Below the pieces are notes generated by a model. The model was not told the DNA's origin. It was given only the letters and a program-made list of their open reading frames with translations, and did not search any database. 64,000 nucleotides of DNA, taken from contig JAKQKB010000075.1 of the NCBI GenBank assembly GCA_029560875.1, positions 23,225 to 87,224 of the forward strand, given 5' to 3'. The position numbers were made by a program, and so were the translations under genes. This stretch comes from Bacteroidota bacterium. Lineage in GTDB: Bacteria > Bacteroidota > Bacteroidia > Bacteroidales > Tenuifilaceae. This document shows positions 1,404 through 53,447 of this stretch, one piece after another. Each line of letters opens with the position of its first letter. Position 1 is the first letter of the stretch.

Positions 1404-1553
1404 CTACTTCTTCTGAACTGCACGCTTTACCTCACAACTAGGGCAACCAGTGCAACCACTCTCTTTTTTCCTAAGGCTCTTAACTACTGCATATACAGTG
1501 TACAACAATGCTGCAAGAACCAATATTAATGCAATAGTATCCTGACTCATCAT
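1404..1553 (-). CDS. small FeoB-associated Cys-rich membrane protein
   Basis: This 49-residue protein has one N-terminal membrane helix (residues about 6-25, IALILVLAALLYTVYAVV) followed by a basic stretch and a Cys cluster, GCTGCPSC, near the C-terminus. That architecture matches the small FeoB-associated Cys-rich proteins often encoded directly downstream of feoB and thought to assist the ferrous iron transporter. It starts 5 nt after the feoAB stop codon. Two adjacent ATG codons (1551-1553 and 1548-1550) are possible starts. The family role is inferred from layout and position. Confidence 0.85.
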   Translation of the reverse strand: MMSQDTIALILVLAALLYTVYAVVKSLRKKESGCTGCPSCEVKRAVQKK

Positions 1554-1558
1554 AATAT

Positions 1559-4030
1559 TTATTGAATAAAATAACTACCTATTTGATACATTAAAAACGA
1601 TACAACCCAAGCAATCGCAGTGGTATAAACCATACTGAACAAAGCCCACTTCCAATTTGCCTCCTTTTTAATTGCTGCAATTACAGCCACACAGGGGAAA
1701 TAAATTAAAACGAATAGCATAAATCCAAATGCAACCAGCTGATTGAATACTTTTTGCCCTTTGAGCGCACCACTGGAGTGTTCCTGCTGCTGCAAACTCG
1801 AAATTAGCGAACCCGATGTTTCATCGGCCTCTAAATCGGCGTGATAAATGATACCCATTGTGCTAACCACAATTTCCTTAGCGGCAAGACCTGTTATGAT
1901 GCTTGCACCAATTTTCCAGTCGAAACCCAGCGGCTGAATTGCAGGCTCAATAAACCTACCCATACGACCAATATACGATTGCTCCTGATGCTCCGAGGCC
2001 TTTATCAAATCAATATCCGAAATTTGAGCCTGTTTTACAGAATCACTTAACTCTGCATTATTAGAAATAGAGGTAATTTGTGAATCGAAATCGGCAGAGT
2101 ACTCAACATTCCGAGGATAATAGCTTAAGCCCCAAATTAGAATTGATGCCAGTAGAATTACTGTTCCCATTTTACGTAAGTACTGAGACCCCTTAAACCA
2201 CATATGGATTATTGTATTCCTTAGCGTTGGAATGCGATAAGGAGGTAATTCCATAACAAAAGGAACATCCTGCTTAGCAAACAATGTTGTTTTAAGCAAA
2301 AGCGCCACTAAAATTGCCAGTAAAATTCCAATAAAATAGACAGAGAAAAGCACCAAGCCCTGATTTGTTGGAAAGAATGCAGATATCAGCAAAACATAAA
2401 CGGGAAGCCTTGCACTACACGACATAAATGGAGTTATCAGCATTGTTATTATTCTATCCTTCCTATTCTCCAGAGTACGTGTAGCCATAACAGCAGGCAC
2501 ATTGCAGCCAAAACCCATAAGTAGCGGAATAAACGATTTACCGTGCAAGCCTATCTTATGCATCAACTTATCCATTATAAAGGAGATGCGAGCCATATAG
2601 CCAGTATCCTCCATCAAGGAGATAAAGAAGAAAAGAATAAGAATATTGGGCAGAAACACAATAACACCACCAACTCCACCAATAATTCCATCCACAACTA
2701 AATCGCGTAAAGCGCCATCGGGTATTGCATTTCCAACAATATCACCTAAATATCCAACGCCAGCATCAATCCAATCCATTGGATAGCTACCAATTGTAAA
2801 GGTGGCCTGAAACATCAACCACATAAAAGCAATGAAAATTGGAAAACCCCATAGTTTGTGGGTTAGAACATTATCTATTATTTTGCTTCGATGATGCTTC
2901 TTCTCCCGACTCTCCTTTAATGTTTCGGCCAATGCTCCTGCAATAAACCCATATTTTGCATCGGTTACAACGGTTTCCGATTTATCGCCATACTCCTTTT
3001 CCAACCGTTGAATCTCCCTGTTTGCAGCAAGCATAACTGCATCAAAGTTTAAACAACTACGGAGTAAATCTTGGGTTGTTCTATCGTTCTCCAGCAGTTT
3101 TATTGCGATAAATCGCAATGAGAACCGGTCGGCAATCTCCTTGTTAGGCCTGAGCAACTCTTTAATTTTCGATATGGAACCTTCGATAGACGCACCATAG
3201 TTGATATGGATATGACGCACAATTGGGTCTCTATCCTCGTAAACATCAACAGTTTTGGCAATCAACTCCGAAACGCCACGCCCTTTTATTGCAACCGTAG
3301 GAATTATTGGAATTCCAAGCATTATGGCAAGGTCGAAATACTTAAACTGAATACCTTTTTGCTCCAGCTCATCGAACATATTTAAAGCGATTATCACCTT
3401 AATATTCATATCGATAAGTTGAGTTGTTAGGAATAGGTTTCGCTCCAAATTGGAAGCATCAACCACATTGATAACAACATCGGGCATATTGTCCGCAATA
3501 TGCTTGCGTACAAAAAGCTCCTCGGGGGTATAGTCGGTTATCGAGTAGGTTCCGGGCAAATCGACAATGTTTATTTTATAACCATCGTGCTTAACCATTG
3601 CCTCTTTTGCCTCGATAGTTACTCCACCATAGTTACCAACCTTCTCGTGCAAGCCCGACATATAATTGAAAAGCGAAGTTTTCCCACTATTTGGATTCCC
3701 AACCAATGCAACATTGATAGTTTTACTTTTTTCGCGAGCCGATACCTTTAACTTATCCTCAACCAGTGTTCCCTCAAACACGCTGGAATTATCGGATTGC
3801 AAATCGTTCTCCGAAACAACCTCAATTAGCGACGCCTCGCTTCTACGAAGCGAAACATTGTAGCCCATAATCTCATACTCAATAGGGTCGAGCAAAGGAG
3901 CATTCCTAATCACCTTAACCGATTTTCCCTTCACAAATCCCATTTCGGTTATCCTTTTCCGAAACGCCCCTTGGCCAAACACTTTTGTTATTATGCCAAT
4001 CTGCCCATTTGATAATTCCGATAAACGCAT
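1559..4030 (-). CDS. feoB: ferrous iron transporter, FeoA-FeoB fusion
   Basis: This inner-membrane GTP-dependent Fe(II) transporter is 823 residues long. Residues 1-72 form a FeoA-type SH3-like domain. The G domain follows, with P-loop GNPNSGKTS (111-118), switch II DLPG (157-160) and NMFD (217-220). The C-terminal half has the gate and core helices with motifs such as GFGCNVPAVMATRT. FeoA-FeoB fusions are common in Bacteroidota. The gene starts 15 nt after the stop of the OprB-like porin gene and is followed 5 nt later by the Cys-rich partner gene, so the three probably form one transcript. No clear Fur box was seen near the operon promoter. Confidence 0.97.
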   Translation of the reverse strand: MRLSELSNGQIGIITKVFGQGAFRKRITEMGFVKGKSVKVIRNAPLLDPIEYEIMGYNVSLRRSEASLIEVVSENDLQSDNSSVFEGTLVEDKLKVSAREKSKTINVALVGNPNSGKTSLFNYMSGLHEKVGNYGGVTIEAKEAMVKHDGYKINIVDLPGTYSITDYTPEELFVRKHIADNMPDVVINVVDASNLERNLFLTTQLIDMNIKVIIALNMFDELEQKGIQFKYFDLAIMLGIPIIPTVAIKGRGVSELIAKTVDVYEDRDPIVRHIHINYGASIEGSISKIKELLRPNKEIADRFSLRFIAIKLLENDRTTQDLLRSCLNFDAVMLAANREIQRLEKEYGDKSETVVTDAKYGFIAGALAETLKESREKKHHRSKIIDNVLTHKLWGFPIFIAFMWLMFQATFTIGSYPMDWIDAGVGYLGDIVGNAIPDGALRDLVVDGIIGGVGGVIVFLPNILILFFFISLMEDTGYMARISFIMDKLMHKIGLHGKSFIPLLMGFGCNVPAVMATRTLENRKDRIITMLITPFMSCSARLPVYVLLISAFFPTNQGLVLFSVYFIGILLAILVALLLKTTLFAKQDVPFVMELPPYRIPTLRNTIIHMWFKGSQYLRKMGTVILLASILIWGLSYYPRNVEYSADFDSQITSISNNAELSDSVKQAQISDIDLIKASEHQEQSYIGRMGRFIEPAIQPLGFDWKIGASIITGLAAKEIVVSTMGIIYHADLEADETSGSLISSLQQQEHSSGALKGQKVFNQLVAFGFMLFVLIYFPCVAVIAAIKKEANWKWALFSMVYTTAIAWVVSFLMYQIGSYFIQ

Positions 4031-42766: not shown

Positions 42767-43294
42767 ATGCGCATACAGAGAATTAGCAACAATGTAGATA
42801 CTGTTGAAATTGACGGTGAAGTCGACCTATCGCTAATAATGCCGTTAATCAACAAGTATCGTGGCAAAAAAGGTAGTCTTATACCGTTACTTCAGGGTGT
42901 TCAAACAGTTTATGGGTATATACCTAAAAGCGCCTTTGAACTTTTAGCAAAGGAAACAGAACTTACCCTAAGCGATATGTACGGTGTCGCTACTTTCTAT
43001 GCTCAATTTAGATTAAAGCCTGTAGGCAAAATTGTAGTGAAAGTTTGTCACGGAACAGCCTGCCACGTTCAAGGTGCCGATGCAATATCCACCGCAATAA
43101 AGGATGCATTGGGCGTTGAAGATGGCGGCACAACACCCGACAGACTTTTCACGCTGGAAACAGTAGCATGTTTAGGTTGTTGCTCTCTTGCCCCAGTTAT
43201 GATGATTGGAGAGGAGACCTTCGGCAAACTTACAGGAAGTTCTGCCGTGAAAATAATCAAGGAAATCCGAATTAGGGAAAGCCAAAATAAATAG
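42767..43294 (+). CDS. NuoE-like [2Fe-2S] subunit
   Basis: This 175-residue thioredoxin-fold protein carries C94, C99, C135 and C139 in CHGTACH and CLGCC, the ligands of the [2Fe-2S] cluster of NuoE and HndA-type subunits. In complex I and in bifurcating hydrogenases this subunit pairs with NuoF, which the next gene encodes. It is the first gene of a four-gene unit. The surroundings contain no complex I membrane-arm genes, so this is a soluble NAD(P)H-linked complex rather than complex I. Confidence 0.92.
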   Translation: MRIQRISNNVDTVEIDGEVDLSLIMPLINKYRGKKGSLIPLLQGVQTVYGYIPKSAFELLAKETELTLSDMYGVATFYAQFRLKPVGKIVVKVCHGTACHVQGADAISTAIKDALGVEDGGTTPDRLFTLETVACLGCCSLAPVMMIGEETFGKLTGSSAVKIIKEIRIRESQNK

Positions 43295-43320
43295 TTTATA
43301 GTTGTTCGTTGAAAGTTGAT
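43293..43320. repeat. degenerate heptad array (unit AGTTGAT) starting at the nuoE-like stop codon
   Basis: Four units AGTTTAT, AGTTGTT, CGTTGAA, AGTTGAT. The first begins within the stop codon (43292-43294). The same unit makes the array at 12314-12341. Confidence 0.65.
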
Positions 43321-43330
43321 GTGCCCAAAC

Positions 43331-43351
43331 CCTTAACTTTTAACCTTTAAC
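43331..43351. repeat. degenerate heptad array (unit TTTTAAC)
   Basis: Three units CCTTAAC, TTTTAAC, CTTTAAC end 13 nt before the start of the nuoF-like gene. The reverse complement of this unit recurs at 45135-45169. Confidence 0.55.
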
Positions 43352-43364
43352 TCATCACATAATT

Positions 43365-45143
43365 ATGACACAAACAAAGGTAATTGTTGGACTTGGCAGT
43401 TGCGGGATTGCAGCCGGAGCCAACAAGGTTTACAACAAAATAAAAGCCCTTCAGGAAGCAGAAAAACTCAACTTTGAACTTGCTAAAACGAGCTGTATTG
43501 GAATGTGCTTCCGCGAACCACTTGTTGAAGTGATTGACGATAATGGCTCTATGATTTATGGAGATGTTGATGAGGACAAGGCCATAGAGATTATTCAGCA
43601 ACACGTTATTGGGCTGAACCCAATTAAGGATTACGTTGTAAAAACCGATTTATTCACCACTCCCGATAGTGTTTACTTCGATGGACAAATTAAAATTGCC
43701 CTTCGGAATTGTGGATATATCGACCCAGAGAATATTCAGGAATATGAAGATAGGGGTGGTTACTCTGCCTTGAAACTAATTGCAAAGGACAAAATTGCAC
43801 CCGATGTTGTTATACAAACCATTATCGACTCCGGACTTCGTGGCCGTGGCGGTGGTGGTTTTCCAACCGGAATGAAATGGCGATTTGCCCGTGCAAGCCA
43901 ATCAGCCGAAAAGTACATTATTTGTAACGCAGACGAGGGCGACCCCGGAGCATTTATGGACCGTTCATTGCTCGAAGGCGACCCACACGCAGTTATTGAA
44001 GGGATGATAATTGGCGCATACGCCATTGGCGCAACCGATGGTGTTATATACTGCCGTGCCGAGTATCCTCTGGCTATCAAACGCCTAAACATAGCGCTTG
44101 CACAAGCACATGAACGTGGCTATTTGGGAAATAACATTCAAGGAATTGAAGGATTCAACCTCGATATTCATATTAAGGAAGGCGCTGGCGCCTTTGTTTG
44201 CGGAGAGGAAACTGCGCTAATGGCATCGATAGAGGGAAAGCGCGGTATGCCATCGAAACGTCCACCGTTCCCAGCCGAATCGGGACTATGGCGTAAGCCA
44301 TCGAACATCAACAACGTTGAAACATTTGCCAACGTATCGTATATTGTAAGTCACGGTGCTGGCTCGTTTAACAAGTACGGAACCGAAAAAAGTAAAGGAA
44401 CCAAGGTTTTTGCGCTAACAGGCAAAATTAAGCACGGAGGTCTTGTAGAAGTTCCAATGGGAATGAGCCTTCGCGATATCATCTTTAAACTTGGTGGCGG
44501 AATTCAAAACAACAAAAAGTTCAAAGCCGTTCAGTTGGGAGGTCCTTCGGGCGGTTGTATTCCCGAGCATCTAATAGATATCCTAGTCGATTACGACCAA
44601 GTTAACGCCACTGGCGCAATTATGGGCTCGGGAGGGATGGTTGTAATGGACGAAACAACCTGTATGGTTGATGTTGCCCGGTTCTTCCTCGATTTCACAC
44701 AAAAGGAATCGTGTGGAAAATGCACATTCTGCCGAATTGGAACTAAGCGAATGCTTGAGATTCTTTCCAGAATTACTGTAGGCGAAGGCCAAGAGGGCGA
44801 TATCGAAAAACTTGAGGAACTGGCTCTGCAAGTTAGGGATAGTTCTCTATGCGGACTTGGCCAAACCGCGCCAAACCCAGTGCTCACCACAATTAAGTAT
44901 TTCCGTCACGAGTATGAGGCTCACATCCGCGACAAAAAGTGCCCTGCACATAGCTGCAAGAAACTTCTCACCTACGAGATTGTTGCCGATAAGTGTACTG
45001 GATGTACAGTTTGTGCAGTGAAATGCCCTGTTAAGGCAATTGACGGGGAACGCAAAAAGGTTCATCATATAAACCAGGATATCTGCATTAAGTGCGGCGA
45101 CTGCTACTCAAATTGCCGATTTGATGCAATTACAAAAAGTTAA
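43365..45143 (+). CDS. NuoF-like FMN/NADH-binding subunit with extra FeS domains
   Basis: This 592-residue subunit has, in order: a thioredoxin-like N-terminus with C13, C44 and C48 (VGLGSCGIAAGA; only three Cys are evident); the FMN/NADH domain with GLRGRGGGGFPTGMKW, CNADEGDPGAF and GAGAFVCGEETAL; an SLBB segment; the N3-type cluster ESCGKCTFCRIGT with a later LCGLGQ; and two C-terminal [4Fe-4S] ferredoxin motifs, CTGCTVCAVKCP and CIKCGDCYSNC. This order is that of HndC/HydB-type subunits of soluble bifurcating enzymes. It should oxidise NADH or NADPH and pass electrons to the next protein. Confidence 0.94.
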   Translation: MTQTKVIVGLGSCGIAAGANKVYNKIKALQEAEKLNFELAKTSCIGMCFREPLVEVIDDNGSMIYGDVDEDKAIEIIQQHVIGLNPIKDYVVKTDLFTTPDSVYFDGQIKIALRNCGYIDPENIQEYEDRGGYSALKLIAKDKIAPDVVIQTIIDSGLRGRGGGGFPTGMKWRFARASQSAEKYIICNADEGDPGAFMDRSLLEGDPHAVIEGMIIGAYAIGATDGVIYCRAEYPLAIKRLNIALAQAHERGYLGNNIQGIEGFNLDIHIKEGAGAFVCGEETALMASIEGKRGMPSKRPPFPAESGLWRKPSNINNVETFANVSYIVSHGAGSFNKYGTEKSKGTKVFALTGKIKHGGLVEVPMGMSLRDIIFKLGGGIQNNKKFKAVQLGGPSGGCIPEHLIDILVDYDQVNATGAIMGSGGMVVMDETTCMVDVARFFLDFTQKESCGKCTFCRIGTKRMLEILSRITVGEGQEGDIEKLEELALQVRDSSLCGLGQTAPNPVLTTIKYFRHEYEAHIRDKKCPAHSCKKLLTYEIVADKCTGCTVCAVKCPVKAIDGERKKVHHINQDICIKCGDCYSNCRFDAITKS

Positions 45144-45169
45144 GAGATAAAAGTTAAAGGTTAAAAGAA
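45135..45169. repeat. degenerate heptad array (unit AAAAGTT) overlapping the nuoF-like stop codon
   Basis: Five units AAAAGTT, AAGAGAT, AAAAGTT, AAAGGTT, AAAAGAA. They are in phase from the last codons of the gene through the stop codon (45141-45143). Confidence 0.6.
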
Positions 45170-45226
45170 TTAGTAATGAGAATTTAGATTTCGAACCAAC
45201 AGCCTAAAATCCTATAGTCTTTAAAC

Positions 45227-45258
45227 CAAACAGTCAAACAGTCAAACAGCCAAACAAC
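45227..45258. repeat. octad array (unit CAAACAGT)
   Basis: Four units of 8 nt: CAAACAGT, CAAACAGT, CAAACAGC, CAAACAAC. The array ends 9 nt before the start codon of the large oxidoreductase gene. Confidence 0.75.
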
Positions 45259-45267
45259 CAACTCCAA

Positions 45268-48200
45268 ATGAGCGAACAGGTAAATATAGTTCTAAACGGA
45301 ATTAACACAACAGCCCACAAAGGCGAGTATATACTTGATGTTGCCCGCAGACACGGAATAGACATTCCAACCCTTTGTCACGACCCAAGGTTAGAGCCAT
45401 ACTCATCGTGCTACGTTTGTGTGGTGGAAATTGAAGGTCAGCGAAACCTCCAACCATCCTGCTCAACCCGCGTTGCGGAGGGAATGAAAATTAACACCGA
45501 CAATAGCCGTGTACACAAGGCTCGCAAAACTGCGCTGGACTTGATAATGAGCAACCACTACGCCGATTGTGCGGCACCTTGTCGCGAGCGTTGCCCTGCT
45601 GGCGTTGATGTTCAGGGCTATATCTCGCTAATTGAAAAAGGACTTTATAGCGAAGCAATTGGACTGATAAAACAAACCAATCCGCTACCTGCAATTTGTG
45701 GTAGGGTTTGCGTTCGTCCTTGCGAGGCAGCCTGTCGCCGAAACAATATGGACGAGGGAACAGGAGTTGGCATCGATTATCTAAAACGTTTCGCCGCCGA
45801 CCGCGATTTGGAATCAACCCATCACTATAAACCCACCATTGCACCATCAACAGGTAAAAAGGTGGCAATTATTGGTGCTGGCCCTGGTGGACTTTCTGCC
45901 GCTTACTTCCTTCAACAAAAAGGTCATCAGTGCGATATTTTTGAGGCACAAGCCCATGCTGGGGGCTGGTTACGTTACGGAATTCCAGAGTATCGCCTAC
46001 CAAACGATTTGCTCGATAAAGAAGTATCAACAATCACCGAACTTGGTGCAAACATATTCTACAACCAAAAACTTGGCGATAACCTAAGCTACAAGAAGAT
46101 TAGCGAGGAGTACGATGCTATGATTCTTACCATTGGCTCGCAGCGCGGAGCGCTTTTGGGTGCCGATGGCGAGGATGCCGATGGAGTTTTCTCCGGCATC
46201 GATTTCCTTCGGAATATGGAGGTTACAGGTCAACGATACGATTTCAAAGGCAAGCGCATTGCCGTAGTGGGCGGTGGAAATACCGCTATGGACTGCTGCC
46301 GCACATCAATCCGCTGCGGAAGCACTGATGTTAAGGTGATATACCGCCGTACTGAGGCCGAAATGCCTGCAAACCCTATCGAAATTCACGAATCAAAACT
46401 TGAGGGTGTTGAATACCAATTCCTAACTGCTCCGGTTAGAGTGAACAAGGATGCTAACGGAAAAGTAAAATCGATGACCCTAATCAAAATGGGATTGGGC
46501 GAACCCGACGCATCGGGTCGTAGAAGGCCTGTACCTATTGAGGGCTCGGAGTACGATATGGAGTTCGACTACATACTTGCTGCAATTGGTCAGAAAACCG
46601 ACATCAACTTTCTTGACGATGTTAACAAACACGCAAAGAATGGCGAGCTAAAAGCCAATAAATGGGGCGATATTGACGCCAACAAGGCAACCCTGCAAAC
46701 TGGCATTCCATCAGTTTTCGCTGCTGGCGATGGCGTTACAGGCCCCGCAACCATTATTGAAGCTGTTGCACAAGCTAAATTGGCCTCACACAGCTGTCAC
46801 CTTTACTTAACTGGGCAAGACGTTGCGGCACCTAAAAAGGAATTTCTAAGCAAAAAGGATAACTTTCATCAACTTAGCAAGGATGAATTTGTAAATAGAT
46901 ACCAGCATCAGATACGTGAGGAGATGCCAGTTCTGGAAGCCGATGGCCGCAAAAATTTCAACGAAGTTGAACTGGGCTACACCCACGAACAGGCGCATCA
47001 CGAGGTTGGACGTTGCTTGGAATGCGGCTGTACTGAGTATTTCGATTGTCAACTAAAGCAGCACGCCGACACATACCAAGCCGATCAAATGCGATTTATG
47101 GGTGAGCATAAGGAGTTCAATGTGAACTTCTCACATCCATACATCGAAATTGATAACAACAAGTGCATCCTCTGCTCGCGCTGCGTTAGAATCTGCAAAG
47201 ATGTTGTAGGTGCAAATGCACTAACGCTTGTAAAACGTGGCTTCGAAACCTACGTTGCACCTGCATTGGGCGAAAATTTGGCTAACACAACCTGCGAATC
47301 GTGCGGTATGTGTATTTCGGCCTGTCCAACTGGTGCTATCACCGAGAATGTTCCATTCAAACCAGGCCCTATAAAAACCGAAACATTCGAAACTATATGC
47401 GGATTCTGCTCCGTGGGGTGCACACTAACTTTCCACCACCGTGGAGGTTACATCATGAAGGTGACTGGCGCAAATGGAATGGTTAATACCGATGGAAACC
47501 TCTGTATGTATGGCAAGTTCGGTTATCGCAAGTTCAACAGCACAAGCAGACTCACCAAACCTTTGAAAAAGGTCAACGATAAGTTTGTAGAAATCAGCTT
47601 CGATGAGGCATACCGAATGATATCAGACCAAATTAAAAAGGTAAAACCTGAGCAAAACGCATTCTTTGCAGGAGCATCGCTAACCAACGAGGAGCAATAC
47701 CTTGTTCAGAAGTTTGCACGTGCCGCTGCAAAAAACAACAATATTGGAAGTTTCCACTATATGAACGGCGATAGCGCTTTTGCAATTGACTCTTTGGCAA
47801 ATTTCAACTTCGATTCTATAAAAAACACAAATCACGTCTACCTACTTGCAAGCCAAATTAACAGGAACAATCCAGTATTGGGGTATATGCTCAATGCTGC
47901 TAAAAAGCCAATCACAGTAATTTCCACAAAAGAGAGCAACCTTGCCGATAGGGCAAATGAGTTTATACAAATCCAATCCTACTATCACTTTGTAAAGGCT
48001 GTAAACCACTACTTGCTTACTCACGACAAGCAAAATATGATTTTCATTGGCGACCACTGTGATAATTTTGGGAAATACGACTCAGAATTGCTACTTGCCA
48101 ATTTTGCCGATTTATGCAAAACCGCAGGCACTAGCCAAACCGAGGTTGAGCGCTTTGCCAATGAATTCAACAACGACTTTGGCGCGTTGCTAGTATTTGC

Positions 48201-48972
48201 CGAGAACGAAGTTTCCAATGCCACGGCGCAGGAGATTTTCAACCTAATGCTTATTACAGGTAAGTTAGGGAAAACAAATGGAGGCCTAATTGCTCTTAAG
48301 CAGAAGAATAACTCTCACGGATTAATCGATATGGGCGTTAGACCCGAAACAAGTATTGGAATGCAAAGCATAACCAATCCTGAATTGGTATCGAAATTGA
48401 GAACCAAGTGGAAGGTTGACGAAATCCCTGCAAACACCTTGAATGTTGAGCAGGCATTCAGCAATGGCGATTTTAAGAACATCATTATCTTTGGTGAAGA
48501 CCCTGTTGGCACTGCAACTCACAAGCATAATGTTAAGGAGAACTTGAAGAAGGCAGAATTCATTGTGGTACAGGATAGTTTTATGAGTGAAACAGCCGAA
48601 ATGGCTAATCTTGTATTACCAGCAAGTTTCTGGTTCGAGACTGGTGGCTCGTTCACCAATAGCAACCATATGGTTCAAACGTTCAGCGAGGGATTAAAAC
48701 CAAAGGTTGAACACACAACTGTAGACCAATTGCTTGCCTTACTTAAGCAATTCAACATCAACGGCTGCAAGGATGTTTACGATGTACAAACAGAAATACT
48801 ATCGCTACTACCCCAAACCGACGGTCAAGCAAAGTATTCGTTCGTATTAACCAGTTCCGATTCGGGCTATATGAACTTTGTAAGTGGTTGCAACCACATA
48901 ATGATGCAATTCGATAGGGAATTCGAAACCAAGCTAGAACATTCTAAAACCAACCAATATGAACGAGTTTAG
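45268..48972 (+). CDS. NuoG/GltD/molybdopterin-fold fusion oxidoreductase
   Basis: This 1234-residue protein fuses several electron carriers. Residues 1-80 hold a NuoG-type [2Fe-2S] site (C37, C48, C51, C65). A GltD-like flavoprotein follows (Cys-rich CGRVCVRPCEAAC, FAD site IIGAGPGG at 199-206, NAD(P) site VVGGGNTAM near 332). Two [4Fe-4S] motifs come next (C633, 636, 639, 643 and C676, 679, 682, 686). The last part (about 705-1234) resembles the FdhA molybdopterin domain with its own cluster CGFCSVGC (C711, 714, 718, C746). By-eye alignment puts N833-G834 where formate dehydrogenases have Cys or Sec followed by His, puts Tyr748 at the usual Lys, and finds no C-terminal dinucleotide-binding domain. 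So it is probably a catalytically silent, NuoG-like electron conduit and not a formate dehydrogenase. Confidence 0.9.
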   Translation: MSEQVNIVLNGINTTAHKGEYILDVARRHGIDIPTLCHDPRLEPYSSCYVCVVEIEGQRNLQPSCSTRVAEGMKINTDNSRVHKARKTALDLIMSNHYADCAAPCRERCPAGVDVQGYISLIEKGLYSEAIGLIKQTNPLPAICGRVCVRPCEAACRRNNMDEGTGVGIDYLKRFAADRDLESTHHYKPTIAPSTGKKVAIIGAGPGGLSAAYFLQQKGHQCDIFEAQAHAGGWLRYGIPEYRLPNDLLDKEVSTITELGANIFYNQKLGDNLSYKKISEEYDAMILTIGSQRGALLGADGEDADGVFSGIDFLRNMEVTGQRYDFKGKRIAVVGGGNTAMDCCRTSIRCGSTDVKVIYRRTEAEMPANPIEIHESKLEGVEYQFLTAPVRVNKDANGKVKSMTLIKMGLGEPDASGRRRPVPIEGSEYDMEFDYILAAIGQKTDINFLDDVNKHAKNGELKANKWGDIDANKATLQTGIPSVFAAGDGVTGPATIIEAVAQAKLASHSCHLYLTGQDVAAPKKEFLSKKDNFHQLSKDEFVNRYQHQIREEMPVLEADGRKNFNEVELGYTHEQAHHEVGRCLECGCTEYFDCQLKQHADTYQADQMRFMGEHKEFNVNFSHPYIEIDNNKCILCSRCVRICKDVVGANALTLVKRGFETYVAPALGENLANTTCESCGMCISACPTGAITENVPFKPGPIKTETFETICGFCSVGCTLTFHHRGGYIMKVTGANGMVNTDGNLCMYGKFGYRKFNSTSRLTKPLKKVNDKFVEISFDEAYRMISDQIKKVKPEQNAFFAGASLTNEEQYLVQKFARAAAKNNNIGSFHYMNGDSAFAIDSLANFNFDSIKNTNHVYLLASQINRNNPVLGYMLNAAKKPITVISTKESNLADRANEFIQIQSYYHFVKAVNHYLLTHDKQNMIFIGDHCDNFGKYDSELLLANFADLCKTAGTSQTEVERFANEFNNDFGALLVFAENEVSNATAQEIFNLMLITGKLGKTNGGLIALKQKNNSHGLIDMGVRPETSIGMQSITNPELVSKLRTKWKVDEIPANTLNVEQAFSNGDFKNIIIFGEDPVGTATHKHNVKENLKKAEFIVVQDSFMSETAEMANLVLPASFWFETGGSFTNSNHMVQTFSEGLKPKVEHTTVDQLLALLKQFNINGCKDVYDVQTEILSLLPQTDGQAKYSFVLTSSDSGYMNFVSGCNHIMMQFDREFETKLEHSKTNQYERV

Positions 48973-49414
48973 GAATATCGACGATATACTCGATTTTGCA
49001 ATCGAACGCGAGCAGGACGCTGTAAACTTCTACAATAAAATGGCTGCAGGAGCCCGCAATGCCGATATGAAGGCTACTTTTGAGCAATTTGCTCAGGAGG
49101 AAATGGGACATAAGGCAAAGCTTTTGAAGATAAAAGTAGAAGGTATTAACGCCCTCAAAAATGAGAAGGTTCAAGACCTAAAAATTGCCGACTACATTGT
49201 GCGCGACGAGCATCGTGGCGAACTAAACTACGAGCAGGCATTGGTTCTTGCAATGAAACGCGAGAAAGCCGCATTTCGCTTATACTTAACACTCTCCGAA
49301 AGGGTTAAAGATACCGAGTACAAAAACCTTTTCCTTTCGCTTGCACAGGAAGAATCGCGCCACAAGTTGCGATTCGAGTTGGAGTACGATGAGTTTGTTT
49401 TAAGGGAGAACTAA
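48959..49414 (+). CDS. ferritin-like diiron protein
   Basis: This 151-residue four-helix protein has two diiron motifs, E48-x-x-H51 and E122-x-x-H125, with further likely ligands near E18 and E102. It resembles the ferritin-like half of rubrerythrin but lacks a rubredoxin domain. Its start overlaps the end of the large oxidoreductase gene by 14 nt, so the two are translationally coupled. It may receive electrons from the complex to reduce peroxide or oxygen; that link is an inference from position. Iron storage or a sulfur-oxygen role is possible. Confidence 0.88.
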   Translation: MNEFRNIDDILDFAIEREQDAVNFYNKMAAGARNADMKATFEQFAQEEMGHKAKLLKIKVEGINALKNEKVQDLKIADYIVRDEHRGELNYEQALVLAMKREKAAFRLYLTLSERVKDTEYKNLFLSLAQEESRHKLRFELEYDEFVLREN

Positions 49415-49431: not shown

Positions 49432-49464
49432 ACCCCCTCAAGGGTTTTGAACCCTTGAGGGGGT
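49432..49464. terminator. perfect palindrome after the ferritin-like gene, family member 3
   Basis: ACCCCCTCAAGGGTT (49432-49446) and AACCCTTGAGGGGGT (49450-49464) are perfect 15-bp arms around TTG. A short T-rich stretch follows. It likely ends the nuoE-like operon and is the best example of the palindrome family seen at 33764 and 32806. Confidence 0.75.
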
Positions 49465-49555: not shown

Positions 49556-49563
49556 TACCTTTG
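49556..49563 (+). promoter_or_regulatory. TAnnTTTG promoter element of the SH3 protein gene
   Basis: TACCTTTG at 49556-49563 matches the element exactly; the upstream TTTG is weak. It covers an in-frame TTG at 49561, which supports the ATG at 49588 as the real start. Confidence 0.55.
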
Positions 49564-49587
49564 CTCCGGATTCAGATTAAATGGCAA

Positions 49588-50439
49588 ATGATTCGTATCG
49601 TTATTCGAATTCTTCTAGTAGCAGTATTTTTATACATAACAGCATCGTGTGTTGAGCCGGGTCACTACCAAACCCGCGAAAGGTATGTTGTAGATTCTAA
49701 GAGCCTATTTATTCGTAGCGCCCCTTCGCCTATCTCTGAGATTATCTCCAGCTACAAACAAGGCGATACCATTGTTGCACTTGCATCGGATAAGTACTGG
49801 GTAATGGTTAAGCGAGGTAGTAAAACCGGATTTGTCTCTACAGATTACTTAAAAAAGATTGAACCACCCAAAACCCCAATAATTCTTGAAAAAGTTGAGG
49901 GAATAGCCAACTGGAAATCATGGTATTTCTGGGTTATTGCTTTGGCAATTACACTTTTATGGGTATTTATTGATGAGATGACTATCAAATTCAAGGAAAA
50001 ACTCAAAAATAAGCACGAAATTTCAGTTAAAGGACTCTTAATTACACCAGTAGTTTTCTTTGTAAATGCAATTATGTGCGGTGTTCTTTACATCAACTGG
50101 AAGGACCAACTGCTAGAAAGTCTTCACAAAGGATTCTCGCTTGTACCCGAAAATCTTGATATTATAAGCTGGGTACTTTGGATTCAGTTACTAATACTTC
50201 TAATTGGAATATCGCTCGATTTACTCGGCTCAATTTTCAAGAGCGGTGTTGCTTGGGGTATGCTCCTAACCCTTATCGACTTGTTGCTGGGAGTTTACAT
50301 CTTTGCAGTTTCGTTCTACCTAACCATATCGCTCTACTACTTTGCAATTATCTTCCTATTGATATTCTTCGGAAGCCAGTACATATCTATGGTTTACCAG
50401 AATAGTAAGCGTACTAGGCTGTATCAAAGGCCTAAGTAG
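49588..50439 (+). CDS. SH3-domain membrane lipoprotein-like protein
   Basis: This 283-residue protein begins with a lipoprotein-like signal (LYITASC) followed by a bacterial SH3 domain (about 35-95, SLFIRSAPSPISEIISSYKQ, ending GFVSTDYLKK) and then four or five membrane helices (about 115-275). SH3 domains of this kind often bind cell-wall peptides. The start at 49588 is preferred because the upstream TTG lies in the promoter element. No known function; it is convergent with the molybdate/tungstate operon. Confidence 0.75.
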   Translation: MIRIVIRILLVAVFLYITASCVEPGHYQTRERYVVDSKSLFIRSAPSPISEIISSYKQGDTIVALASDKYWVMVKRGSKTGFVSTDYLKKIEPPKTPIILEKVEGIANWKSWYFWVIALAITLLWVFIDEMTIKFKEKLKNKHEISVKGLLITPVVFFVNAIMCGVLYINWKDQLLESLHKGFSLVPENLDIISWVLWIQLLILLIGISLDLLGSIFKSGVAWGMLLTLIDLLLGVYIFAVSFYLTISLYYFAIIFLLIFFGSQYISMVYQNSKRTRLYQRPK

Positions 50440-50523: not shown

Positions 50524-51585
50524 TCAAACCCTAGGTATAAACCTTAACGAGTTTGCTTTGAACGATACCCAAACATCGGAGCCGTGCTGAAGTTCTAGTC
50601 GGTTTATGGATTCCCAAGTTACTAGCGCCATCACTTTAAAACCAACATCAACTGTAACCTCATATCCAAATCGTTGGGGGAATATATCAACAACTTTTCC
50701 TTGGAAAACATTTAATGCGCTCTGATTGGGGCTTGTTCTGGAAACGCTCACAGCACTTTCAGGAAAACACACAAAACCATCGCCAATGCTTTCGTCGGTG
50801 TAACCACAAATCTTATGTCCGCTTTGCAGTTGGATTATCCTTAGTTCGTGCTCGGTTGTGTCAATAATTTGAGCGTGATAGAAATTTCGCACTCCTGTAA
50901 ATTTGGCAACAAACATCGATTTTGGGTTCTGGAATATCTCCTCGGCAGTATCGCACTGCTCAATTATTCCTTTATTCACCACAGCAACCCTATTGGCTAG
51001 CGATATGGCCTCCTCGTAATCGTGGGTAACGTGTATTATGGTTGTACCCTCCCTATTTATTGCTCTTAGAGCAGAACGCAAACCAGCCCTCAGCTGAACA
51101 TCAAGCGACGATAAAGGCTCATCGAGCAGCAAAACCTTTGGCTCAAGTGCCAATGTGCGAGCCAACACCATACGCTGCAACTCCCCACCCGAAAGGGTTT
51201 GTGGATTTCTATCGAGCAGATGATTTATGGATAGTTTCTCCGCCAGTTCAATAACCCTGCGGTGCAATGCCCTACCCTTTACACCCTTTCTTCGCAATGG
51301 GTAAGCAATATTGCTATAAACTGACATATGCGGGAAAGCCGCATAATCCTGAAATACCAAACCAACACCACGGTTTGTAATAGGTTTTTGGGTGATATCC
51401 TCGTTATTGAGGTAAATAAATCCAGATTCGGGCCTTACCAAACCAGCAATGGTTTCGAGAATAACCGATTTTCCTGCACCAGATGGCCCTAAAAGCATAA
51501 AGTAGTCGCCCTCGTTCACTGTGAACGAAACATCCTTCAGGGCAAACGCTCCCAAATTCTTCGATAGTCCTTCTACCTTAAGCAT
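50524..51585 (-). CDS. wtpC: molybdate/tungstate ABC transporter ATP-binding protein
   Basis: This 353-residue ATPase has Walker A GPSGAGKS, signature LSGGELQRM, Walker B LLLDEPLSSLD and the switch His in VTHDYEEA. A C-terminal regulatory domain (about 230-353) has the TOBE/MOP-like beta character of ModC/WtpC proteins. Its start overlaps the permease stop by 8 nt. It is the last gene of the long minus-strand operon. Molybdate, tungstate or sulfate specificity is inferred from the ModE-like regulator and the substrate-binding protein. Confidence 0.88.
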   Translation of the reverse strand: MLKVEGLSKNLGAFALKDVSFTVNEGDYFMLLGPSGAGKSVILETIAGLVRPESGFIYLNNEDITQKPITNRGVGLVFQDYAAFPHMSVYSNIAYPLRRKGVKGRALHRRVIELAEKLSINHLLDRNPQTLSGGELQRMVLARTLALEPKVLLLDEPLSSLDVQLRAGLRSALRAINREGTTIIHVTHDYEEAISLANRVAVVNKGIIEQCDTAEEIFQNPKSMFVAKFTGVRNFYHAQIIDTTEHELRIIQLQSGHKICGYTDESIGDGFVCFPESAVSVSRTSPNQSALNVFQGKVVDIFPQRFGYEVTVDVGFKVMALVTWESINRLELQHGSDVWVSFKANSLRFIPRV

Positions 51586-52384
51586 TGGGTTTATTTTTTC
51601 TGGATAATAAACGAATAATTACAAATACAATAAGGCTAACACCAATAAATAGCACGGCCGCTGGACGCGCATATTTTAAACCAAAAGCTCCAAACCTTTC
51701 AAATATCAGAACAGGAGCAATCATAGGGTGATAAGCGATAATAACAACTGCACCAAACTCGCTCATTCCACGGGCAAACATCATTACCAAACCCGACACA
51801 ATGCTTCGCCAAGCCAACGGAAGCGATATAGTGAAGAATACCGTTGCCGGCGATGCGCCCAAATTAAGCGCGGCTTTCTCCAAACGCTCCGGAACAAGCG
51901 CAAAACCCTCGCGTGCTGCATTAATCAGAAATGGAATACTAACAAAAGCCATAGCCAAAGCAATTCCAGCGGGCGCTCCAATCAACTCCAGCCCAACTGC
52001 CGATGAAGTTTTGCCCATAAAACTATCGCGAGCAATAAAACCCAGAATTGCGATACCTGCCGCAGAATGCGGAACAACAACAGGTAAATCGATAATTCCT
52101 AGAACAAGCCGTTTCAATGGAAAATCGTAACGTGCAAGCAAGTAAGCCAAAGGTATTGCCAATACCGAAAAAACAATTGTTGCAGCCATCGACACCCAAA
52201 TTGTAAGCCAGATGCTATCTATCACTTCCTGCTCTGCTGCTGTATCAACTAAAGTTTTAACAGGTGTTGATATTACCATCCCTAGTAACGGCGATATAAT
52301 AAAAAGCAATACAAGACCACCCAGTAAGGCTGCAATCAGCCTAAACCAAGAGAAATTTGTATGTTTGAATACTTTGCTAATCAT
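51578..52384 (-). CDS. wtpB: molybdate/tungstate ABC transporter permease
   Basis: This 268-residue inner-membrane protein has six helices and the EAA loop EKAALNLGASPATVFFTISL, which contacts the ATPase. The start MISKVFKHTNFSWFR at 52384 is preferred; an in-frame ATG 72 nt upstream would place the heptad array of the gap inside the coding region. It couples directly to the ATPase gene through an 8-nt overlap. Confidence 0.88.
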   Translation of the reverse strand: MISKVFKHTNFSWFRLIAALLGGLVLLFIISPLLGMVISTPVKTLVDTAAEQEVIDSIWLTIWVSMAATIVFSVLAIPLAYLLARYDFPLKRLVLGIIDLPVVVPHSAAGIAILGFIARDSFMGKTSSAVGLELIGAPAGIALAMAFVSIPFLINAAREGFALVPERLEKAALNLGASPATVFFTISLPLAWRSIVSGLVMMFARGMSEFGAVVIIAYHPMIAPVLIFERFGAFGLKYARPAAVLFIGVSLIVFVIIRLLSRKNKPNA

Positions 52385-52396
52385 TATCTTTCTTAG

Positions 52397-52477
52397 GTGA
52401 CGGGCGACAAGTGATATGTGACAAATAAAGCAATAAAAAAAACATTTCCCTGTCACTCGTCATTTGTCACATGTCAC
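52397..52477. repeat. two inverted heptad arrays (unit GTGACNN) between wtpA and wtpB
   Basis: Four GTGACNN-type units at 52397-52424 face four NNGTCAC-type units at 52450-52477. The inner parts pair almost perfectly (52411-52426 with 52462-52477, 15 of 16 bases), so the message can form a stem with a 35-nt loop in the 100-nt gap. Confidence 0.75.
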
Positions 52478-52484
52478 AATTAAA

Positions 52485-53447
52485 TTATTTTAAAGCGAAT
52501 ACTTTCAACGGTTCTGGAATACTATCAAAAGATGTAGTGGGACTTGGCACAACTGGGGTTTGTCCCATTTGTTTTAGTATTGCTAATCCACCATTTTGGC
52601 TCAAAAAGAACTTGGCAAAGGCTACAGCCAACTCAGGGTTTTTACTACTTTTTGGAATGGTTAAGCCATAAACCATTGGTTCTCCAACCATCTTTACTGT
52701 TGAATTAGGGGTTTTGCCAAGCACTTCAACATCAACCTGCCTATATGTTGACTCATACGAAGGAGATGAAAGGTTTACCTCTAGCGGAAGGCTCAAATAC
52801 TTCAGATTGTGCTGAACTGCAACCGATTTGTAAAGAAAAATATAGTCGATAGCACCTGCTTCCAACAAAGCAATCAAATCGACCTCCTTGGGGCGAATAA
52901 ACTTATTGTCTTTTTGCAGAACCTTTTCAGCGATTCCTGCATTCTGGTAGTATATCTCGGAAAGTTTAAGAGTCATAACGGTTCTATAACCACAGGGGTC
53001 GGAATTTGGGTCGCTACGACCAAAAGCAACGTCATCTTTCAACAGTATATCGAGCCAGTTGCTCAAATTTATCTCATTAGCATAACGCGACTTATCGTGG
53101 TACACTATTGCCATTTCATTCCCTGCAAAGGGAATATTCCACGATGCAAAATCAGGAATAAGCAACTTATCTATCACCTTATAATCGGCCGATGCGAACA
53201 AATCGCAAGGTTTACCCAATTCAGATATTTTACGTGCACACTCCACGCTTCCTGCTGCCTCAAGGTAAACCTTAACCTTTGGGTTTACCTTGGTAAAACT
53301 ATCAACGGCAGCCTTCATTGGCATCGAAAGGCTTCCTGCATGAAAAACGATTAACTCGCCAGAGTTAAATCGCTTATATTCTTTAGCTCCACAAGAAAAA
53401 AGGAAAAAGGAAGCAATAAATAGAAATGTGCATTTAATGGCTCTCAT
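52485..53447 (-). CDS. wtpA: tungstate/molybdate-binding lipoprotein of ABC transporter
   Basis: This 320-residue binding protein has a lipoprotein signal (lipobox FLFSC, C19). The mature part begins LIVFHAGSLSMPMKAAVDSF and contains AAGSVECARKISELGKPCDL and FASADYKVIDKLLIP, close to WtpA/ModA oxyanion-binding proteins. It delivers tungstate or molybdate to WtpB. The FHAGSL and GSVECARKI style is closer to the WtpA group than to E. coli ModA. Confidence 0.9.
   Translation of the reverse strand: MRAIKCTFLFIASFFLFSCGAKEYKRFNSGELIVFHAGSLSMPMKAAVDSFTKVNPKVKVYLEAAGSVECARKISELGKPCDLFASADYKVIDKLLIPDFASWNIPFAGNEMAIVYHDKSRYANEINLSNWLDILLKDDVAFGRSDPNSDPCGYRTVMTLKLSEIYYQNAGIAEKVLQKDNKFIRPKEVDLIALLEAGAIDYIFLYKSVAVQHNLKYLSLPLEVNLSSPSYESTYRQVDVEVLGKTPNSTVKMVGEPMVYGLTIPKSSKNPELAVAFAKFFLSQNGGLAILKQMGQTPVVPSPTTSFDSIPEPLKVFALK

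Follow-up and report, generated by a model that had tools for sequence, protein, structure and literature searches.

The closest described system to the locus reported here is StnABC of Sporomusa ovata (8oh5), an electron-bifurcating transhydrogenase in which, according to PMC10482914, bifurcation takes place in StnAB and NADPH is oxidised at the GltD domain of StnC. The same kind of enzyme is named Nfn-Bfu in PMC9304861, where members from Bacteroidetes are mentioned. The same paper predicts a Rub-Bfu group (type 4 Bfu), in which a Bfu core is adjoined by a rubrerythrin gene and predicted to reduce peroxide, a coupling suggested from 13 gene neighbourhoods without BfuA. The locus in question lies in a 64,000-nucleotide stretch (the window) of contig JAKQKB010000075.1 of a Tenuifilaceae bacterium (Bacteroidota; assembly GCA_029560875.1), and comprises a StnABC-like trio of genes followed by rub, a gene for a rubrerythrin-like protein (Rub). 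The reading that we favour, at a little better than even probability, is that a Stn-type bifurcating NADPH:NAD+/ferredoxin transhydrogenase is likely cotranscribed with a predicted diiron protein, Rub, which would be fed by the complex and would reduce H2O2 or O2.

The trio agrees with Sporomusa StnABC (8oh5/8oh9; PMC7483475 and PMC10482914) in the domains of its three subunits, the lysine of the C7 cluster, the flavin arginine, and the inactive FdhF-like domain, and its three subunit kinds also agree with the NfnABC-type structures 9bov/9bp5 and 9n5u/9n5v. It differs from the Sporomusa enzyme in that rub follows and overlaps stnC, and in StnC itself, which is 1234 rather than 1172 residues long and has Val at the C114 position and Cys at position 144 (Ile in Sporomusa). 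The likeness to Rub-Bfu lies in the pairing of a Bfu core with an adjoining rubrerythrin gene; however, the Rub-Bfu systems, as described in PMC9304861, lack BfuA and carry Rub behind BfuB, whereas the present locus has a BfuA of Nfn type, StnC, with Rub standing behind it. Membership in type 4 Bfu was rejected on these two points, StnC being present and Rub not lying directly behind bfuB. Stn and, as a prediction, Rub-Bfu without BfuA are already known, while a Rub-equipped Stn and the fusions described below appear to be new. In the portions of the open-licence PMC literature available, neither a complete Stn accompanied by a conserved rubrerythrin-like gene nor fusions with such a domain in place of the NADPH half were found, and the word "rubrerythrin" has 0 occurrences in the available parts of PMC10482914 and PMC7483475.

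Identity of the StnABC-like trio

An initial annotation, made from the letters of the window and its open reading frames (ORFs), had proposed four linked genes for a NuoE-like subunit, a NuoF-like subunit with extra ferredoxin clusters, a NuoG/GltD/molybdopterin-fold protein, and a ferritin-like protein; the four ORFs were confirmed at the positions claimed, all on the forward strand, and the Pfam domains of their products agree with these names. The StnA-like protein matches 2Fe-2S_thioredx (168 bits) and, among sequences in the PDB, best matches StnA (8oh5_A, 179.5 bits). The StnB-like protein contains Complex1_51K, NADH_4Fe-4S, and two Fer4 stretches, best matches StnB (8oh5_B, 869 bits), and has the cluster-motif cysteines in common with it, including the C-terminal [4Fe-4S] pair (alignment judged by eye); its N-terminal thioredoxin-like stretch is weak (23.7 bits, under the Pfam cut-off of 24.8). 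The StnC-like protein combines Fer2_4, Fer4_20, Pyr_redox_2, Fer4_Nqo3, Molybdop_Fe4S4, and Molybdopterin domains, and its top PDB matches are 9bov_A (771.7 bits) and StnC (8oh5_C, 762.1 bits), with 9n5u_A at 620 bits; NfnB and GltD structures match residues 103-517. The adjacent NuoE-like, NuoF-like, and NuoG-with-GltD genes that characterise Stn and Nfn-Bfu are all present, NfnA is absent from the four genes and their direct neighbours, and the pairing of NfnA with NfnB that characterises NfnAB is not found there. By homology the trio is firmly placed as a relative of the Stn / Nfn-Bfu transhydrogenases, an already described kind. By analogy with Sporomusa Stn, from which the catalysis is taken, it is predicted to bifurcate NADPH electrons to NAD+ and ferredoxin; judged by PDB matches and signature residues, the NAD(P)H-ferredoxin complex first suggested, whether bifurcating or transhydrogenating, would correspond to known Stn (Sporomusa) / Nfn-Bfu.

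The signature residues include K173, equivalent to the cluster ligand K170 of Sporomusa StnC, and R243, equivalent to R239 (Arg at flavin adenine dinucleotide, FAD), both numbered from a pairwise alignment. Lys occupies the K173 position in 67 of 68 StnC-labelled alignment rows (which count one gene twice, in L157 and L162), the exception being a fusion protein without that half; it is not exclusive to StnC, as a PRK13984-type GltD row also has Lys, and two NfnB rows have Glu. At position 144 the 68 rows have Cys (62) or Ile (6), with Ile in the three rows of Firmicutes/Coriobacteria type; the two NfnB rows, which are not among the 68, have Cys. The C114 position of Sporomusa corresponds to V115 here and is occupied by Val (61 rows), Cys (3), Ala (2), Ile (1), or Ser (1, a fusion). 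PMC10482914 describes a state of the Sporomusa enzyme in which Cys114 is in contact with the lysine-ligated cluster. StnC offers a natural series for this cluster, in which the cysteine stands at 114 in the Firmicutes type, stands at 144 in the present clade, and is missing from both positions in three Bacteroidota-type rows of 40% identity (L174-L176).

The statement in the initial annotation that no active formate site or hydrogenase is present also holds. In an alignment with FdhA, the formate dehydrogenase encoded in this genome (above the TIGR01591 cut-off), the FdhF-like part of StnC has no counterpart to the Cys of the RLCH motif or to the C-terminal cofactor domain, and Pfam finds no H-cluster domain in the four proteins. 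FdhA identity was rejected for StnC, which has no Cys/Sec metal ligand and has incomplete pterin-cofactor domains relative to that FdhA.

The rubrerythrin-like gene and its product

The spacing of stnC and rub, an overlap of 14 nucleotides (nt), is identical in five genomes, including the one studied here. The hairpin behind rub has the longest stem among 16 terminator-like sites found, where shuffling expects 9.0 sites. Because of the overlap and this hairpin, the four genes likely form one transcript that ends after rub; the same two features, together with the recurrence of the StnC-Rub pair in other families, argue that the linkage is more than chance.

Rub matches the Pfam family Rubrerythrin (PF02915, 56.5 bits), and its structure matches show a four-helix ferritin-like fold, closest to rubrerythrin and TM1526 (1vjx). 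The likely ligands E18, E48, H51, E102, E132, and H135 are invariant in 48 sequences, and from fold and family this set is expected to bind two irons. Unlike rubrerythrin, Rub has no rubredoxin domain: it contains 0 cysteines in 151 residues and has no rubredoxin match in Pfam, and the FeCys4 site of classical rubrerythrins is therefore missing. It is 93% identical to its copy in Tenuifilaceae bacterium CYCD.

Co-occurrence of StnC and Rub

The two genes were sought in 295 Bacteroidales genomes (StnC at E <= 1e-130, Rub at E <= 1e-25). StnC was found in 101 and Rub in 89; 79 genomes have both, 22 StnC only, 10 Rub only, and 184 neither, giving an odds ratio of 66 that ignores relatedness among the genomes, a weakness that a 112-genome set with one genome per family reduces and does not remove. 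In that set (picked by handle number, with family labels seen for part only), 31 genomes have both, 9 StnC only, 4 Rub only, and 68 neither. Rub lies behind StnC on the same strand in 52 rows, and within 1 kilobase (kb) of it in 50 of the 101 StnC genomes, in some with a small intervening gene; this count leaves out G692 (3.8 kb, with NfnAB between) and G524 (Rub behind a fusion gene). Across the phylum, a draw of 395 genomes (StnC at E <= 1e-200) yielded StnC in 10 and Rub in 2, namely the genome studied here and G239 (StnC 56% identical). A scan of named genomes gave 51 StnC loci (L038-L088), with Rub behind StnC in 22 (including the Ignavibacteria locus L055), no Rub despite sufficient room in 13 (including Delongbacteria, Chlorobi-named, Coriobacteria/Clostridia-type, and several Bacteroidales loci), and sequence too short or frameshifted in 16.

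Rub in other gene neighbourhoods

Forty stretches (L118-L157) were chosen in which Rub is not directly behind StnC or is a second copy, and a Rub ORF was called in 39 of them (not in L154). Neighbours were typed by family models in L118, L119, L122, L143, L148, L153, and L155, and labelled by BLAST to these in the rest. NfnA-NfnB lies directly upstream on the Rub strand in L118, L136, L153, and L157 (in L157 behind StnC) and divergent from Rub in L119 and L151, while a PRK13984-type GltD flavoprotein with a NuoD-like gene stands by Rub in L155 and L156. Other upstream genes encode glutamate dehydrogenase (L120, L121, L122, L125, L129, L131, L132, L133, L137), a flavodiiron-like protein (L130, L144, and L148, the last match being under the flavorubredoxin cut-off), or an NAD-binding reductase (L139, L143). 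WtpA is directly downstream in L149 and L150, an end piece of StnC lies two genes upstream in L140, and 14 of the 39 stretches have no labelled gene directly upstream. The recurring partners of Rub are NAD(P)H enzymes. Glutamate dehydrogenase is also found near Stn, in 9 of the 51 named loci and in all 10 of the same-family stretches; in the genome studied here it is on another contig.

Two further genes recur in these neighbourhoods. In L121, L122, L124, L126, L128, L129, L131, L132, and L133, Rub is followed one or two genes later by BatA-like aerotolerance genes (typed in L122 and L126, the others by BLAST). A protein of ~290 residues with several CxxC motifs (c8) recurs by NfnAB, Stn, and Rub (L066, L118, L162, L163, L177); its L066 copy has no Pfam match at 1e-6.

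Fusion proteins

At locus L161 the same-strand gene row is StnB-StnC-c8-NfnA-NfnB-fusion-Rub. The fusion protein (P0241) has a Rubrerythrin domain at residues 9-140 and, behind it, three domains known from StnC, namely the two-[4Fe-4S], Molybdop_Fe4S4, and Molybdopterin domains; the junction is just upstream of the StnC motif HPYIEIDNNKC, and the rubrerythrin-like domain replaces the [2Fe-2S] and GltD parts. Among the 120 best database matches listed, at least two more are full-length fusions (757 and 754 residues, 76% and 73% identical), and an assembly accident is unlikely because these match P0241 over its whole length. Two of the three fusions (P0241 and P0243) retain all six ligands. A second type of fusion is represented by NCBIfam PRK12775 (NF009413), known here from the model alone, which unites NfnA-like, NfnB-like, and ferritin parts. 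PRK12775 is like the present system in joining a GltD-type flavoprotein with a ferritin-like domain, but it is built on NfnAB rather than Stn and is a single polypeptide, and its ferritin part is weakly similar to Rub. All six Rubs tested align to that part (E 1.7e-5 to 0.21), which counts in favour of the proposed link between Rub and such flavoproteins.

Proposed mechanism and alternative explanations

By homology to Sporomusa Stn, NADPH would reduce FAD in the GltD domain, and electrons would pass from FAD through the Fe-S cluster chain of StnC to the flavin mononucleotide (FMN) and clusters of StnB, where they would be split reversibly to NAD+ and ferredoxin; the formate-dehydrogenase-like domain of StnC would have a structural role. 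Under oxidative stress, the NADPH-charged Fe-S chain could deliver electrons to the diiron site of Rub, which would then replace a rubredoxin-linked peroxidase and shield oxygen-sensitive clusters. The peroxidase or oxidase output that the initial annotation had proposed is plausible from the neighbours and fusions of Rub. For the operon, the co-occurrence, the alternative partners, and the fusions taken together, the simplest reading is a diiron reductase fed by NADPH through flavin and Fe-S clusters. In this reading NAD(P)H flavoprotein complexes have in Rub a diiron outlet that is likely a peroxide or oxygen reductase. A more specific version is doubtful and is put forward tentatively: that Bacteroidales Stn gained a diiron outlet, in the form of a rubredoxin-free peroxide/oxygen reductase docked on the GltD-NuoG part and tapping its Fe-S chain, and that one lineage exchanged the NADPH half of StnC for a diiron domain, which would give a Bfu-type enzyme peroxide or oxygen as its third substrate.

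Several observations weigh against an outlet dedicated to Stn. The expectation that the diiron gene is kept with the trio stands for Bacteroidales (79 of 101 StnC genomes, 50 of them within 1 kb) and fails as a universal rule, since Rub is absent from the other 22 and from 8 of the 10 StnC genomes in the phylum draw, all eight at 39-41% identity; both loci of Firmicutes/Coriobacteria type with long enough flanks also lack it. Rub is often on another contig or beside other enzymes, and may therefore serve a redox pool and not Stn alone. Amongst the fusions, P0242 carries Lys, Asn, and Val in place of E48, H51, and E132 and has no precomputed Rubrerythrin domain, and the loss of three ligands means that a fused domain can persist when its diiron site is no longer functional. 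Rub and the fused domain are only distantly related, the latter sitting on a long branch in the tree, and the fusion is therefore a parallel case and not the same gene; the match of Rub to PRK12775 is weak. A peroxidase outlet would also draw electrons away from bifurcation, and the link of Rub to Stn is one that genomic evidence suggests.

The best-surviving alternative, which we consider unlikely yet far from negligible, is that Rub is an ordinary stand-alone, rubredoxin-less stress protein with another electron donor, co-regulated with Stn and without contact to it. Its adjacency to glutamate dehydrogenase, the flavodiiron-like protein, and BatA is consistent with this, as is its location on a separate contig from StnC in many genomes. 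However, three kinds of GltD flavoprotein (StnC, NfnB, and the PRK13984 type) carry Rub downstream, and the two natural fusion types unite a ferritin-like domain with parts of these same modules.

It is rather improbable that Rub is instead an iron-handling, maturation, or structural factor (a ferroxidase, iron donor, or repair/assembly protein) that serves an enzyme carrying about twelve Fe-S clusters. The best NCBIfam matches of Rub, the iron exporter MbfA and encapsulin ferritins, point in this direction, all far under cut-off, and both Stn and NfnAB are rich in Fe-S clusters; P0242, which retains the domain without intact ligands, would also fit. Against such a role, one of the frequent neighbours of Rub is glutamate dehydrogenase, in which Fe-S clusters are not expected. 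In addition, His-tagged Sporomusa StnABC produced in E. coli is active, according to PMC10482914. Finally, a formate or hydrogen enzyme in place of a bifurcating transhydrogenase is suggested by the name "formate dehydrogenase major subunit" that one source gives to such proteins, and is extremely improbable given that no H-cluster domain, metal-ligand Cys/Sec, or C-terminal cofactor domain was found, that the Stn signature residues are present, and that formate dehydrogenase and [FeFe]-hydrogenase have genes of their own in this genome.

Genome context and other features

Beyond the locus, the genome encodes RnfC, an NADP-specific glutamate dehydrogenase, formate dehydrogenase, three group-A [FeFe]-hydrogenase subunits (all above the TIGR02512 cut-off), and a NfnAB-like pair on contig C168. 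Because these are present, ferredoxin and NADH made by Stn would have outlets. In acetogens, Stn and Nfn are nearly mutually exclusive according to PMC7483475; unlike in those organisms, Stn and a NfnAB-like pair share one genome here.

The upstream neighbour of the Stn genes is MnmC2 (above its cut-off), on the opposite strand. Past the hairpin, a gene for a 292-residue SH3-domain protein has a conserved position in relatives (L164, L170, L172), and the operon is adjoined by a WtpCBA-like tungstate transporter (WtpA above, WtpB and WtpC below the NCBIfam cut-offs), which is again found near Stn in the same three same-family loci. Other arrangements were seen elsewhere: NfnA-NfnB lies directly upstream of StnA in L046 and L074, where an ATP-binding cassette (ABC) ATPase, not Rub, is directly behind StnC. 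L174, L175, and L176, from other families of the phylum, carry ~40%-identical Stn trios without Rub; in L174 the trio is followed by a histidine kinase and a sigma-54 response regulator (typed), and in L175 and L176 this place is taken by genes of similar length.

Table 1. Coordinates of the features discussed (in the window unless another locus or contig is named; aa, amino acids)
Feature	Position	Strand	Description
StnA-like gene	42767-43294	+	175 aa; NuoE-like, thioredoxin-fold [2Fe-2S] subunit
StnB-like gene	43365-45143	+	592 aa; NuoF-like FMN/NADH subunit
StnC-like gene	45268-48972	+	1234 aa; NuoG with inserted GltD
GltD/NfnB-like FAD and NADP(H) domain of StnC	45565-46818	+	aa about 100-517; Fer4_20, Pyr_redox_2
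C144 codon	45697-45699	+	Cys shared by canonical NfnB and the present clade; Sporomusa-type StnC has Ile
K173 codon	45784-45786	+	corresponds to K170, a cluster ligand in Sporomusa StnC
NuoG-type two-[4Fe-4S] ferredoxin domain	47137-47343	+	aa 624-692; Fer4_Nqo3, 39.7 bits; junction of the fusion proteins lies just upstream
Formate-dehydrogenase-like domain without active site	47383-48711	+	aa 706-1148; Molybdop_Fe4S4, Molybdopterin
rub gene	48959-49414	+	151 aa; rubrerythrin-like, likely diiron site
stnC end / rub start overlap	48959-48972	+	14 nt, from ORF coordinates
Terminator-like hairpin	49432-49464	+	15 pairs, 17 nt past rub stop; likely transcript end
SH3-domain protein gene	49561-50439	+	292 aa
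WtpCBA-like tungstate transporter	50524-53447	-	
Fusion gene P0241	L161 (G524) 1425-3698	-	757 aa; rubrerythrin-like domain and Fe-S/FdhF-like half of StnC
c8 gene, L066 copy	L066 3989-4843		
c8 gene, L118 copy	L118 1-834		
NfnAB-like pair	C168 21389-23643		

Implications

The architecture of Stn with Rub behind StnC occurs in 50 of the 295 sampled Bacteroidales genomes and is partly backed by fusions, and, with the structure of the parent enzyme already solved, it makes the idea of a coupling between Bfu enzymes and peroxide reduction testable.

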